Positions 559 through 43,508 of a stretch of DNA of 44,122 bases are shown here, in pieces. The stretch's first letter is position 1. Every line of letters begins with the position of its first letter. The DNA comes from Pyrinomonadaceae bacterium. Lineage in GTDB: Bacteria > Acidobacteriota > Blastocatellia > Pyrinomonadales > Pyrinomonadaceae. Below the pieces are notes generated by a model. It saw only the letters and a program-made list of their open reading frames with translations. It searched no databases and was not told the origin of the DNA. The DNA is taken from contig JACCSP010000014.1 of the NCBI GenBank assembly GCA_013812905.1, positions 1 through 44,122 on the forward strand, given 5' to 3'. The position numbers and the translations under genes were made by a program.

Positions 559-2550
559 ATGCAAGAAATCTTCGGACCAGACGGTCTAATCGCCAACGCT
601 CATCCTGATTATGAATATCGACCAGGCCAGATCCAGATGGCCCGGGCGGTGATGCGTGCCTTCGAAGATAGACACCATTTAATCGTGGAGGCTGGAACGG
701 GAACAGGGAAAACTCTAGCTTACCTTGTTCCTGCGGTGGCCGCGGCGCTCGGGGGGCGAGGACGGGTGATTATTTCTACCGGCACAAAGAATCTTCAGGA
801 ACAACTAATGGAGAAGGACATTCCCTTCCTCCAGAGCGTATTGCCCAAGAAGTTCACGGCCGCTTACATGAAAGGTCGAAATAACTACCTCTGTTTACAG
901 CGACTCAATCGTGCGCAGAGCTCTCCGGTGCTAGATGGGCTTGGTGAAGTTGATTACTTTGAGGATGTTACCCATTGGTCGAGAGAGTCGCCCACGGGTG
1001 ACCGCGCAGAATTGGCAAATCTTCCCGAGCATCTTTCCTTCTGGCGCCACATAGACGCACGTTCGGAAACTTGTATCGGTCAGAAGTGCCCGGACTTCGA
1101 TCCCTGCTTCATTACCCGGATGCGAAATCGCGCTCAGGATGCGGACATCGTAGTGGTCAATCATCATTTGTTCTTTGCCGACCTGGCGCTCAGAAACAGC
1201 GCCTATGGCAATGTGTTGCCTGACTATTCCGCAGTTATTCTTGATGAAGCGCATCTGATTGAGGATGTAGTCTCAGAATACTTTGGCGCGCAGGTCTCGA
1301 ATTACCAGGTGGAAGACTTGGGGCGCGATATTAGCGCCGTATCGATCGAAAATGCCGGGGTGGATCGGGAGGTAACTAAAACCTGCGCGCGTGTGGAGCG
1401 CTTCGCGGATAACTTTTGGATGGCCTTCCGCGTCGGGCGTGGTGAAGAAGGGCGTTACCCCGTCGTCCCGGGTACGTTCGCCACCAGGAGTAGTAACGGA
1501 GAAATAAACCCGACTCCAGTCGGAGATCTCTACATGTCCCTCGATGGGGCCCTCGCGCGACTTGAGACAACTCTGGATGCGCTCAAGGATAAACCGACTG
1601 AGGTCGAGAATCTCGTGCGGCGGATTAGACAGGTTCGCTTTGATCTTCAGTTCATCGTTACTGGAGCCGATAAGAAGTTTGTTTATTGGACTGAACGCAG
1701 AGGCCGTGGCTTCTTCCTCCGCGCCTCACCAATAGACGTTTCCGGGCTGCTGGAAGACAAACTCTTCGGCGAGGTGGAAACTGTAGTCTTGACCTCAGCA
1801 ACGCTTTCCAGCGCGGGTAATTTTGCATTCATTCGCGAGCGGCTGGGGCTCGACAAGGCTGAGGACTTGATTGCGGAATCAACTTTCGATTTCCAGAAAC
1901 AGGCCCTCCTTTACCTGCCGTCCAGGATGCCCGATCCGCGTTCCTCTGACTGGGCCCGGGCCGCAGCCGCCGAGGTCGTCAAGATTGTGAACGCCACCGA
2001 TGGTCGCGCATTTGTCCTCTCAACAAGTCTTGCGGGAATGCAGTCGCTATACGATCTGGTAATGCCAGAGCTGGACTATCCCTGTTTCCTGCAAGGCAGT
2101 GCAGCAAAGGGCAGGCTGCTGACGAGATTCAGGGAAACCCCGAATGCCGTGCTCTTTGCGACTTCGAGTTTCTGGCAGGGTGTGGATGTGCGCGGTGAGC
2201 AACTGTCATGTGTGATTATAGACAAACTGCCTTTTGCTGTACCGACCGATCCGATTGTCGCGGCGCGTCAGCGTTACATTGAAGACGAGGGCGGGTCGAG
2301 TTTTTTTGAGTACAGCGTGCCCCAGGCGATCATCAGCTTGAAGCAGGGACTGGGTCGGCTGATACGCAGTACTACTGACCGCGGCGTCCTTGCTGTGCTC
2401 GACCCCCGTCTGCTCACCAAAGCTTACGGGCGAACCTTTCTGAAGAGCCTGCCACCGTGTCGAGTGACCTCCCGCATTGATGAGCTGGCGAAGATTTTTG
2501 AAACCGAATCCAAGGTCCCAGGTCCAATGTCCAATGTCAGTTTGGTATGA
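559..2550 (+). CDS. dinG: DinG-family ATP-dependent DNA helicase with Fe-S cluster
   Basis: Superfamily 2 helicase of the XPD/DinG group, which unwinds DNA 5'-3' and acts in repair of replication blocks and R-loops. In the numbering from the TTG at 553, Walker A is GTGTGKT at residues 48-54 and the DEAH box is at 231-234. Four cysteines (114, 174, 179, 185) have the C-x4-C-x5-C spacing of the DinG 4Fe-4S domain. The C-terminal helicase domain carries the usual SFWQGVDV and QGLGRLIRS motifs. There is no extra exonuclease domain, and the length of about 663 residues fits the family. ATG 559 and TTG 553 are both possible starts; neither has a clear ribosome site. The last dozen or so residues (KVPGPMSNVSLV) are encoded by a 7-bp repeat array and are probably not conserved. 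Confidence 0.92.
   Translation: MQEIFGPDGLIANAHPDYEYRPGQIQMARAVMRAFEDRHHLIVEAGTGTGKTLAYLVPAVAAALGGRGRVIISTGTKNLQEQLMEKDIPFLQSVLPKKFTAAYMKGRNNYLCLQRLNRAQSSPVLDGLGEVDYFEDVTHWSRESPTGDRAELANLPEHLSFWRHIDARSETCIGQKCPDFDPCFITRMRNRAQDADIVVVNHHLFFADLALRNSAYGNVLPDYSAVILDEAHLIEDVVSEYFGAQVSNYQVEDLGRDISAVSIENAGVDREVTKTCARVERFADNFWMAFRVGRGEEGRYPVVPGTFATRSSNGEINPTPVGDLYMSLDGALARLETTLDALKDKPTEVENLVRRIRQVRFDLQFIVTGADKKFVYWTERRGRGFFLRASPIDVSGLLEDKLFGEVETVVLTSATLSSAGNFAFIRERLGLDKAEDLIAESTFDFQKQALLYLPSRMPDPRSSDWARAAAAEVVKIVNATDGRAFVLSTSLAGMQSLYDLVMPELDYPCFLQGSAAKGRLLTRFRETPNAVLFATSSFWQGVDVRGEQLSCVIIDKLPFAVPTDPIVAARQRYIEDEGGSSFFEYSVPQAIISLKQGLGRLIRSTTDRGVLAVLDPRLLTKAYGRTFLKSLPPCRVTSRIDELAKIFETESKVPGPMSNVSLV
2515..2542 (+). 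repeat. heptamer array, left arm of pair A (GTCCAAT units)
   Basis: Consecutive 7-bp units GTCCCAG (2515), GTCCAAT (2522), GTCCAAT (2529) and GTCAGTT (2536). They overlap the last codons of the helicase gene. On the minus strand the unit reads ATTGGAC, so this array faces the TTGGACT array at 2742-2776 and could pair with it. Confidence 0.8.
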
Positions 2551-2668
2551 TCTTTTAAAAATGAAGGCTACGTTGTTATTTGCTAATCTACCCTGACAGA
2601 GGCTCGGCCGAGGAGCGAGGGCGGTCCAGCTTAACAATTCGTGAAACTCGCTGACGAGATCGACTGAT

Positions 2669-2701
2669 CCAGCCTGAAAGTCTTTCAATAAATCAGGCTG
2701 G
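2669..2701. repeat. hairpin between helicase gene and queD
   Basis: CCAGCCTGA (2669-2677) and TCAGGCTGG (2693-2701) are perfect 9-bp inverted arms around a 15-base loop. No T-run follows, so it is only a possible terminator for the helicase gene. It lies inside the segment bounded by the two facing heptamer arrays. Confidence 0.55.
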
Positions 2702-2741
2702 AATCGGCTCGGCGTCAGGAAGGTGGGCTTTAACCCGCTCG

Positions 2742-2776
2742 TTGGACTTTGGACATGGGACGTTGGACTTTGGACT
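2742..2776 (+). repeat. heptamer array, right arm of pair A (TTGGACT units)
   Basis: Five consecutive 7-bp units: TTGGACT, TTGGACA, TGGGACG, TTGGACT, TTGGACT. The array ends 7 bases before the preferred queD start and contains an in-frame TTG (2742) that would add a repeat-derived peptide to QueD. It is complementary to the array at 2515-2542. Confidence 0.85.
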
Positions 2777-2783
2777 TTGCAGC

Positions 2784-40578: not shown

Positions 40579-41904
40579 ATGCGCCGCAGCAAACGCATCG
40601 TGTTATCAACCTTCGGTTCGCTTGGTGACATCCATCCGTACATGGCGATTGCCCTCGAACTCCAGGCGCGGGGCCATGACCCCGTGATCGCCACCAGCAG
40701 CCTGTATCGGGAAAAGATTGAAGGCGCGGGACTGAGTTTCGCGGCGATGCGACCTGATCTGCCACCGCCCAGGGAACAAGATCAGGAGATGATGGACAGA
40801 ATCATGGAGCCTAAGTCTGGTCCGAAATATTTAATGGAAGAACTTATTTTCCCTTACGTGCGCGAGGGCTATGCCGACCTGATGCAAGCCTCCGAGGGAG
40901 CTGATCTGCTGGTAACTCATCCAATCACGTTCGCTGGGCCGCTCGTGGCGCGAACGACGGGAATACCCTGGATTTCTACCGTACTCGCTCCGCTCTCGTT
41001 TTTCTCAGCTTACGATCCACCCATGCCCCCATTTTGGCCATGGTTGAATAAACTCCGGCTGCTGGGCCCGCGTTTTATGAAATCGTTTATGGATTTAGTA
41101 AAGCGGAATTATCGTGCAAAGCCGGTAGATGAACTTCGAAAGGAGTTGGGCATTCCCGATTTTGGAAATCCAGCTTTTGATGGGCAACACTCGCCTGGGC
41201 TCGTGCTTGCCCTCTTTTCTAAACACTTCGCCGGCCCGCAGGCTGATTGGCCGCGGCAAACTCAGATTACCGGTTTTCCCTTCTACGATGGGCAGCACGA
41301 GAATGTCATGCCTCCGGAGTTGTTCGAGTTCCTCAACTCAGGTGCGGCGCCTATCGTGTTCACCCTCGGGTCGTCGGCTGTCTGGGTGGCGCGGGATTTC
41401 TTCCATGAGAGTATTGCCGCGGCGAAAAAGCTGGGACATCGGCGCGCTGTCTTGTTGATCGGCGACGAGCGCAACCGTCCCCAGGAGCCTTTGCCCCCGG
41501 AGATGATTGCCGTCGATTATGCTCCGTTTGAATCACTCCTTGATCGCGGGTGCGTCATTGTCCACCATGGCGGAGTGGGTACCACCTCCCAGGGACTTCG
41601 TGCCGGTATTCCCACGTTGATCGTGCCCTTTGCTTTCGATCAGTCTGACAATGCGGCGCACGCTGCCCGACTCGGAACTAGCCGTACTCTTTACCGGAGT
41701 GTCTACAAGGCCGAACGGGTGGCGAAAGAACTCGACAACTTGCTGAGCAAGCCTCAGTATGCGGTGAAAGCCAGGGAAGTCGGTGCATGCCTGCGCAGCG
41801 AAAATGGAGCGGCCACCGCGTCGGACTTGATAGAGGAGTTCTTGAGCGGCTGGCGGAGAAAAAAAACGGCAACCGAAGATCTCACCTATGCTTCTCGTAA
41901 TTGA
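40579..41904 (+). CDS. UGT-type (GT1-like) glycosyltransferase
   Basis: Protein of 441 residues with a GT-B fold. The N-terminal block STFGSLGDIHPYMAIALELQARGHDP is typical of macrolide/sterol-glycosyltransferase relatives. The nucleotide-sugar donor motif near the C-terminus is VHHGGVGTTSQGLRAGIPTLIVPFAFDQSDNA, with the HHGG and DQ residues of family GT1. Likely acceptors are lipids, sterol-like molecules or secondary metabolites; the sequence does not decide. AGGAG lies 5 bases before the ATG. Its end overlaps the coaX start by 17 bases, so the two are translationally coupled. Confidence 0.9.
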   Translation: MRRSKRIVLSTFGSLGDIHPYMAIALELQARGHDPVIATSSLYREKIEGAGLSFAAMRPDLPPPREQDQEMMDRIMEPKSGPKYLMEELIFPYVREGYADLMQASEGADLLVTHPITFAGPLVARTTGIPWISTVLAPLSFFSAYDPPMPPFWPWLNKLRLLGPRFMKSFMDLVKRNYRAKPVDELRKELGIPDFGNPAFDGQHSPGLVLALFSKHFAGPQADWPRQTQITGFPFYDGQHENVMPPELFEFLNSGAAPIVFTLGSSAVWVARDFFHESIAAAKKLGHRRAVLLIGDERNRPQEPLPPEMIAVDYAPFESLLDRGCVIVHHGGVGTTSQGLRAGIPTLIVPFAFDQSDNAAHAARLGTSRTLYRSVYKAERVAKELDNLLSKPQYAVKAREVGACLRSENGAATASDLIEEFLSGWRRKKTATEDLTYASRN

Positions 41905-42691
41905 CGTTGGAAATACCAATACTTCTTTGGGCGTCTACCGTGGTTCCGAGCTGGTAGCCCATTGGCGCCTGACCACAAATCGCGCACGAACCGTTGATGA
42001 GTATGGTGTTCACGCGCGCAACCTGTTTGAGCTGGCCAGCCTCGACTTCAAAGCCATCGACGCTATCGCAATCGCCTCGGTAGTACCGCCGTTAAACTAC
42101 ACATTGAAGACGATGGCCGAGACCTACTTCCACTTAACGCCATTCTTCGTGGACAACACGGTCGACTCCGGAGTCCAAATTCTTTACGAACCAGCGGCGG
42201 ATGTGGGTGCCGACAGAATTGTAGATGCGGCCGCTGCCATCCATAAGTATGGCTCGCCCTGTATCGTCGTCGACTTTGGCACCGCCACCACTTTCAATGC
42301 AATCAACGCGCGAGGCGAATACCTTGGCGGTGTTATTACTCCGGGAATCATGATTTCGTCCGACGCGTTATTTGATCGGACGGCGAAGCTGCCGCGCGTG
42401 GACATCAAGCGACCGCAGAAAGTTATCGGGTCATCAACAATAAGCGCGATGCAGTCAGGGCTCTATCATGGCTACGTGGGGCTGGTTGATGGTGTCCTGC
42501 GCAAGATGATCGAGGAAATGGGTGGTAAGGCCCGAGTGATTGCTACTGGTGGACTGGCCCCTTTGATTGCCACCGGTTCGGAGTTTATTGAGCTGGTTGA
42601 TGACACCCTGACGTTGGAGGGGCTGAGACTGGTGTATGAACGGAATGCTAAGTCAGTGTCCAATGTCCAACGTCCAATGTCCAAAGTCTAG
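41888..42691 (+). CDS. coaX: type III pantothenate kinase CoaX
   Basis: First step of coenzyme A synthesis: phosphorylation of pantothenate. The ASKHA-fold motifs are DVGNTNT at 6-12, GADRIVDA and DFGTATTFN, together with GGVITPGI. The length of 267 residues fits the family, except that the last roughly 10 residues (SNVQRPMSKV) are encoded by a 7-bp repeat array and probably replace or extend the natural end. The start overlaps the upstream glycosyltransferase gene by 17 bases. Confidence 0.95.
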   Translation: MLLVIDVGNTNTSLGVYRGSELVAHWRLTTNRARTVDEYGVHARNLFELASLDFKAIDAIAIASVVPPLNYTLKTMAETYFHLTPFFVDNTVDSGVQILYEPAADVGADRIVDAAAAIHKYGSPCIVVDFGTATTFNAINARGEYLGGVITPGIMISSDALFDRTAKLPRVDIKRPQKVIGSSTISAMQSGLYHGYVGLVDGVLRKMIEEMGGKARVIATGGLAPLIATGSEFIELVDDTLTLEGLRLVYERNAKSVSNVQRPMSKV

Positions 42692-42699
42692 AATCCAGA
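42658..42699 (+). repeat. heptamer array, left arm of pair B (GTCCAAT units)
   Basis: Units in register: GTCCAAT, GTCCAAC, GTCCAAT, GTCCAAA, GTCTAGA, ATCCAGA. The first four are near-identical and the last two decayed. They encode the final residues and the stop codon (TAG within GTCTAGA) of coaX. The array faces the TTGGACT array 32 bases downstream. Confidence 0.9.
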
Positions 42700-42731
42700 G
42701 TCGAAGAGTTTAATCGGCTTGTAGTGTGACA

Positions 42732-42780
42732 TTGGACTTTGGACTTTGGACCTTGGACCTTTGACCTTTGACCTTGGACT
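42732..42780 (+). repeat. heptamer array, right arm of pair B (TTGGACT units)
   Basis: Seven consecutive 7-bp units: TTGGACT, TTGGACT, TTGGACC, TTGGACC, TTTGACC, TTTGACC, TTGGACT. It is complementary to the array at 42658-42699 and could form a long hairpin with it. The in-frame TTG codons at 42768, 42774 and 42780 are the only nearby starts for the following gene. Confidence 0.92.
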
Positions 42781-43508
42781 TGAATTACTTCAATTACTTC
42801 ACCGAAATCGAAGACGCCTTTATTCGTCGCCGCGGTAAGCATCTGCTACTCAGCCCAATGGACTGGGCCCTGATCGAGAGTTGGAAGGCGATCAACGTCC
42901 CGCTGCATGTCGCTTTGCGCGGGATCGAGAGGGCTTTCGACTCATGGGAAGCAAAGTCCAGGAAGCGTAGCGTCAAGTCCCTTCTTTATTGCCAGGAAGA
43001 AGTCGAGGCTCAGTACGCCGAGTGGTTGGAGTCTCGCGTGGGAGCCGAAGCGGGTGGTGACAATGAGCCGGCCGCCGCCGGAAATGAGGATGATGGTTTG
43101 CCATTTCCTCGGCAGACAATTCTGGAACACTTGCGGCGAGGAAGGTCAGCTCTGGTGCAGACGTTCGGAGAACGAAAACAACTGCACGAAAATGACTTCA
43201 CCGACGCGCTGATGCGGGCTGCCAGTCTGCTGGAAGTGTTGGAGTGCGACTTCAAGCAGTCAGCCACGGCGGATGCGCAAAAACTCGAAGTCTCACTTAC
43301 CGGGCTGGAGCGAATGTTGAGCGATGCAATTCGTTCGGTTGTTACGCCAACGCAACTCGAGGCAGTTACGAGAGAAGTCAAAGATCAGTTGCGGCCATAT
43401 CGCAAGCACATGGACGCTACCGTCTATGAACAGACTTTCGATAACTTGCTGCTAAAGCGTCTGCGGGAGCAGTTTGCAGTGCCGCGGCTTAGTCTGTTTT
43501 ATATTTAG
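42768..43508 (+). CDS. conserved protein of unknown function
   Basis: Soluble protein of about 246 residues, mostly helical. It has no signal or membrane segment. An N-terminal helical region (NYFNYFTEIEDAFIRRRGKHLLLSPMDWALIESW and after) precedes a Glu/Ala/Gly linker near residue 95 and a second helical domain. I do not recognise a family. No ATG occurs before residue 30, so the start must be one of the TTG codons inside the heptamer array (42768, 42774, 42780) or further in. It is followed 61 bases later by an RNA methyltransferase gene on the same strand. Confidence 0.7.
   Translation: MTLDLNYFNYFTEIEDAFIRRRGKHLLLSPMDWALIESWKAINVPLHVALRGIERAFDSWEAKSRKRSVKSLLYCQEEVEAQYAEWLESRVGAEAGGDNEPAAAGNEDDGLPFPRQTILEHLRRGRSALVQTFGERKQLHENDFTDALMRAASLLEVLECDFKQSATADAQKLEVSLTGLERMLSDAIRSVVTPTQLEAVTREVKDQLRPYRKHMDATVYEQTFDNLLLKRLREQFAVPRLSLFYI

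Follow-up and report, generated by a model that had tools for sequence, protein, structure and literature searches.

The inverted heptanucleotide arrays between coaX and the gene downstream of it are one of many heptad-repeat hairpins in Pyrinomonadaceae genomes that are built by common rules, and the element belongs to a widespread, rule-bound class of repeat hairpins lying just after stop codons. In the window, the whole stretch of 44,122 nucleotides of a soil acidobacterium that was analysed, the relevant features are the following.

41888 to 42691, plus strand: coaX, type III pantothenate kinase (Pfam PF03309, E 3.8e-75)
42658 to 42688, plus strand: 5′ arm, GTCCAAT GTCCAAC GTCCAAT GTCCAAA GTC (four units plus GTC, 31 nt)
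42689 to 42691, plus strand: coaX stop codon TAG, the next codon after the 5′ arm
42689 to 42727, plus strand: loop between the arms, 39 nt, opening with the coaX TAG and continuing for 36 nt
42728 to 42779, plus strand: 3′ arm, GAC plus seven NTTGGAC-type units (52 nt, 7 × 7 + 3)
42648 to 42777, plus strand: predicted RNA hairpin spanning the junction (minimum free energy fold)
42780 to 43508, plus strand: downstream gene, encoding a conserved protein of 242 amino acids from TTG 42780, with orthologues in relatives
2508 to 2779, plus strand: a second pair of inverted GTCCAA/TTGGAC arrays, between two co-directional genes

The 5′ arm is read in the coaX frame and encodes the last codons of the gene. 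NCBIfam profile matches to coaX stop at about residue 250-256, which puts the tail coded by the array beyond the conserved fold. An earlier note on this DNA had four to six GTCCAAT-type units closing coaX, stop included; four units and a GTC do close the gene, and the TAG adjoins the arm instead of falling within a unit. Its count of seven TTGGACT-type units on the other side is borne out by the seven NTTGGAC units and GAC of the 3′ arm, which run in the order ATTGGAC, TTTGGAC, TTTGGAC, CTTGGAC, CTTTGAC, CTTTGAC and CTTGGAC, two of the seven being TTTGAC variants. The last base of this arm directly precedes TTG 42780, the gene begins with TTG AAT TAC, and there are no spare bases from 42658 to 42788. 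The spacing of 32 bases given earlier for the arms is replaced by the measured 39 nt. The long hairpin that had been expected from the inverted arrays is supported by the arms themselves and by the fold of the junction RNA (42640-42800, 161 nt), which has a minimum free energy of -57.4 kcal/mol and a z of -5.0 against 200 dinucleotide shuffles. Mismatches in the predicted stem fall mostly at the variable seventh base of the units, and the stem reaches about base 42777, covering the region upstream of TTG 42780 and agreeing with the proposal that it overlies the downstream initiation region. A search against Rfam gave no family above the gathering threshold, the only hit being a chance match that scored 21 bits where the cut-off was 101.7. 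In the second pair of the window the arms lie at about 2509-2538 and 2742-2779, some 200 nt apart.

Comparison of orthologous loci indicates that TTG 42780 is the ancestral, conserved start of the downstream gene. The first ATG of the open reading frame is residue 31, which agrees with the earlier statement that none occurs before residue 30, and in-frame TTG codons are found at 42768, 42774 and 42780. Orthologues of the protein turned up in 54 of the 59 relatives; the majority of matches begin at residue 5 of the frame opened at 42768 or close to it, and the orthologous N-terminus (L/M-NYFNYF) corresponds to TTG 42780, at the array's outer edge, a codon that the earlier note did not single out. 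In five array-less relatives (L125, L126, L127, L132 and L133) the coaX stop overlaps the same TTG by four bases, as TTGA, and other relatives have ATG or GTG at this position. The start is thus older than the array, and the idea that the repeat supplied the only start codons of the gene is rejected by the comparison of relatives with and without arrays that had been proposed along with it. The locus is a caution against taking repeat-born TTG codons for starts. The protein itself (MNYFNYFTEIEDAF...) has no match in Pfam, NCBIfam or PDB; it occurs throughout the class, and Granulicella has it with lower identity. Its nearest named relatives are from Pyrinomonadaceae metagenome-assembled genomes (Acidobacteriota, Blastocatellia), with 80-88% identity.

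The junction is occupied differently from one relative to the next. The window genome and its four closest relatives (L121-L124), all carrying GTCCAA-type units, group together in an unrooted tree of both proteins with a split support of 100, and the array appears most simply to have been inserted in this lineage where relatives have the 4-base TTGA overlap. One of the four, L123, carries the 5′ arm only and retains a GTGA overlap, so the two arms can occur separately; in the other three (L121, L122 and L124) other heptamers are nested within TTGGAC remnants. At the coaX junction of other lineages the inverted layout is the same and the heptamers are others, among them GTCAGGA and the units below.

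L128: GTTCCAA
L131: GTGATAA
L137 and L141: GTTTCAG/GTTTCAA
L138: AGTCTGG
L143 and L146: GTCCGTN/GTCAGTT
L148: GTGACNA, with a nested ATCGTGA pair
L150 and L153: GTCAGNA

In L141 each arm is an exact inverted copy of the other, down to the variant unit. Among relatives the junction changes quickly in arm length and in unit type, and several of them have no hairpin there at all. Of the 37 coaX junctions, 18 give an RNA fold with z at or below -3, a few of these carrying palindromes that are not built of heptamers (L135, L149). The L134 and L135 junctions carry REP-like palindromes of the GTAGGAGCG / GCTCCGTAGGAGC type, with an RNA z of -8.4 in L135.

The same architecture recurs genome-wide, as judged from sampled genome stretches of about 558, 557 and 365 kb on which the gene-context counts are based. 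Counts in 558 kb of the window genome put the arrays far beyond chance: 46 segments have period 7, each other period from 4 to 13 has 0-2, and shuffled sequence has none (hits at period 14 are the period-7 arrays again). Part of this sample was chosen for arrays, which biases the density and leaves the contrast between periods unbiased; a random 119-kb subset holds five period-7 segments and none at periods 5, 6, 8, 10 or 11. A second genome (G004) has 61 period-7 segments in 400 kb against 1-4 at other periods, where one hit per period is a masked run of N. The units are diverse in sequence, with many families per genome, and what they have in common is the period. TTGGACN arrays occur only in the window's own family within the sample of its class, and other families of the class have other heptamers. 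The variable positions of 5′ arms are mostly A/G, that is, transitions, in AGTRCTG, CGTRAAT, ATTKCCR and GTTTCRA units from G000, G004 and G014. On contig C15 of G004, long direct heptamer arrays come in succession in the space of a few hundred bases (L089, L095 and L098, at 170223-170414, 285327-285578 and 352706-353000) with changing units, namely GTCAGTT in 12 copies, TTGGTCT in 6-11 copies, AATCTGG and AGATCTC.

Among pairs of neighbouring arrays no more than 250 nt apart, 62 are inverted, 7 direct and 14 unrelated, and the order of the two arms is fixed. The order GTCCAA..TTGGAC gives 191 matches, overlapping ones included, and the reverse order none (24 of 99 genomes with matches), while ATTKCC..GGMAAT gives 92 and none (8 of 60 genomes with matches). 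An apparent order-breaking pair in the GTCCAA family, produced by automatic clustering, proved to consist of another unit, GGTCTTT. A possible exception is formed by ATTTACC and GGTAAAT, mutual reverse complements that both serve as 5′ units at different loci; they are counted as separate families, since the positions that vary are not the same in the two. Arm length is likewise constrained, with an overall peak near 31 nt, or about four units and a three-base core. Exactly four units are present in 26 of the 46 GTCCAAN arms, and GTC stands at the inner edge of 29 of the 46; in the other families the most frequent arm length is 29-33 nt, though arms from 17 nt are detectable. The apparent mirroring of arms through the variable base (p 0.014 with free register) falls to p 0.15 and 0.32 in fixed registers and is not claimed.

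The pairs are also restricted in their position relative to genes. None of the 58 pairs with both neighbours in view lies within a gene; 48 are between co-directional, 6 between convergent and 4 between divergent genes, where background junctions number 839, 141 and 134, respectively. The 48 co-directional pairs begin a median of 3 nt after the upstream stop and end 12 nt before the downstream start, and they lie nearer the stop than under uniform placement (0 of 5000 simulations as close). These distances come from simple gene calls of our own, which are rough for starts and exact for stops of correctly called frames. Comparison of the 48 loops gave no match at E 0.01 or better, which argues against a shared mobile core or MITE-like element.

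At the coaX junction itself, the reading that we favour, at somewhat short of even odds, is that of an intercistronic RNA hairpin over the downstream initiation region that is opened by ribosomes finishing coaX. If coaX and the downstream gene are co-transcribed, the arms would pair in the mRNA and the stem would lie over roughly 35-50 nt upstream of TTG 42780, where ribosomes land. Ribosomes finishing coaX would open this stem, since they read the entire 5′ arm up to the adjacent stop, and downstream translation would remain tied to that of coaX, replacing the lost TTGA overlap. This reading is favoured by the exact abutment of the arrays to stop and start, the stable fold, the ancestral TTGA overlap, the grouping of the five array genomes in the tree, the other heptamer hairpins that fill this junction in other lineages and the genome-wide rules of period, pairing, order, length and place. 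Against it stand the rapid change of arm length and units among relatives, which is expected of a neutral repeat too, the relatives that have no hairpin at this junction, and pairing at the variable seventh base that is not maintained. Since the last 12 or so bases ahead of the start are free in most other pairs, gating is put forward for the tight coaX junction only and is not supported as a general role of the class. A hairpin that hides or exposes the downstream start, as the earlier note suggested, may apply here, but pairs elsewhere are not generally laid out in this way.

A heptanucleotide repeat that is passive or selfish and does nothing at the junction is a serious competitor, if a slightly doubtful one; it is nearly as good an account as gating at coaX and nearly as likely for the class as a whole. 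Here arrays would grow by 7-nt slippage, the second arm would arise by hairpin-templated (quasi-palindrome) copying, and the repeats would survive after stops, where they do least harm. The bias towards stops needs no function, because the region before starts is constrained. Consistent with such an origin are the diversity of units that share only a period, the fast turnover at a single coaX junction, the lack of any two like loops among the 48, and the identical arms of L141 with their variant units, as templated correction would yield; the heptamers of Xanthomonas are likewise without a detectable regulatory role (PMC4692102). Simple slippage, however, predicts a falling length distribution, whereas arm lengths have their maximum at four units and three bases, and the never-reversed arm order in the 99 and 60 genomes finds no explanation in it. 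A fixed order and a four-unit length in the absence of a shared core are not explained by simple slippage. Under the favoured reading, the element class itself probably spreads and turns over mainly by repeat generation, through slippage and hairpin-templated copying, with the region after stop codons the most tolerant. A more speculative and rather unlikely proposal is that a cellular process builds or copies these hairpins in a fixed 7-nt register, with four units and a three-base core, in one order, with any unit and seeded at stop codons. If this were true, the hairpins would form a distinct propagating class with its own machinery, of which the Xanthomonas GGGAATC repeats would be one case, and the four-unit length would be unrelated to G-quadruplexes.

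A transcription terminator or attenuator between the two genes is improbable. A long stem directly after a stop codon would suit one, and a related hairpin on contig C152 of the window genome (6421-6468), kept in three relatives, is flanked like a bidirectional intrinsic terminator. That GTCCAA/TTGGAC hairpin is bordered by AAAAAA and TTTTT (L067:6415-6475), its arms and position are conserved in G009, G001 and G012, and a search for compensatory change among its orthologues found single-sided changes only. At the coaX junction the stem is followed by TTGAATTACTTC, with no U-tract, which rules out an intrinsic (Rho-independent) terminator; no terminator-like site was called there, nor any promoter-like site between the stem and the downstream gene, which starts one base further on. 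Of the 48 co-directional pairs, only 6 have at least five T among the 8 bases that follow the stem. The earlier suggestion that the hairpin may stop transcription is therefore not supported.

Mobilization of a REP/REPIN-like palindrome by RAYT (Y1) transposases is very improbable. Inverted pairs at gene ends do resemble REPINs, and genes for Y1 transposases are frequent in the group, with five matches in the window genome. Period-7 arrays are nevertheless present in two genomes without a Y1 (PF01797) match, G010 and G015 (assemblies 87% and 83% complete), the former with 19 ordered ATTKCC-pattern matches, which argues against RAYT/REP mobility; nor is there a common head tetranucleotide or shared loop, and unit sequences differ among families. 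These two genomes, of the same genus (L197-L206), have no TTGGAC arrays and carry other heptamers. Least credible of all are operator-like arrays, to which a ribbon-helix-helix or similar protein would bind in the manner of the parS heptad repeats of pSM19035: unspaced 7-bp units in direct and inverted orientation are a known protein-binding layout, but many unrelated units occur within one genome and their location is tied to stop codons, not promoters.

To our knowledge, the excess of heptamers in bacteria, noted since 2007, has no accepted cause. Among described systems, the TAACTGA heptamers of Beggiatoaceae, Cyanobacteria and some Bacteroidetes are found genome-wide in 2-6 copies at gene junctions (PMC4679880). 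They consist of one unit in direct repetition just upstream of starts, with no predicted secondary structure, whereas the arrays described here are inverted pairs forming a hairpin, which rules out this identity. The long simple sequence repeats of prokaryotes share the excess of a 7-nt unit (Mrazek et al. 2007, cited in PMC4679880 and PMC4692102) and are described in those citing papers as tandem arrays, with no paired, ordered hairpins mentioned there. REP, BIME and REPIN elements are likewise hairpins between genes and at gene ends, many per genome, but they are not tandem heptamers and are linked to RAYT transposases, which the present elements do not require.

The closest counterpart is found in the GGGAATC / (GGGANTN)n repeats of Xanthomonas, which form 70-75 convergent inverted pairs per genome, mostly of four units, a number tied by the authors to the minimum for a G-quadruplex, and for which no regulatory role was found (Rehm et al. 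2015, PMC4692102). Common to both are 7-nt tandem units with degenerate positions (here GTCCAAN), a four-unit majority among arms (with four units in the 5′ and seven in the 3′ arm at coaX), inverted pairs in one orientation (counted here against the reverse order, unlike in the Xanthomonas study), an intergenic location nearer the upstream ORF with mostly co-directional neighbours and rare divergent junctions, and variation from species to species at the same gene pair. The Xanthomonas repeats have one G-rich unit per genus, explained by G-quadruplex formation, whereas many units are present here, in another phylum, and none of 124 arms has the four runs of three G or C that a G-quadruplex needs. 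The coaX element thus shares every tested feature of the wider class of convergent heptamer repeats and is not a G-quadruplex repeat. As the same four-unit preference is seen in units without G-runs, G-quadruplexes are not its general cause, and the one published explanation for it is thereby removed. Taken together, the data extend the stop-proximal architecture of convergent four-unit arms to another phylum, where the units are many, unrelated and unable to form G-quadruplexes, and the strict order and the repeated filling of one junction by different units set concrete constraints on how such repeats originate.
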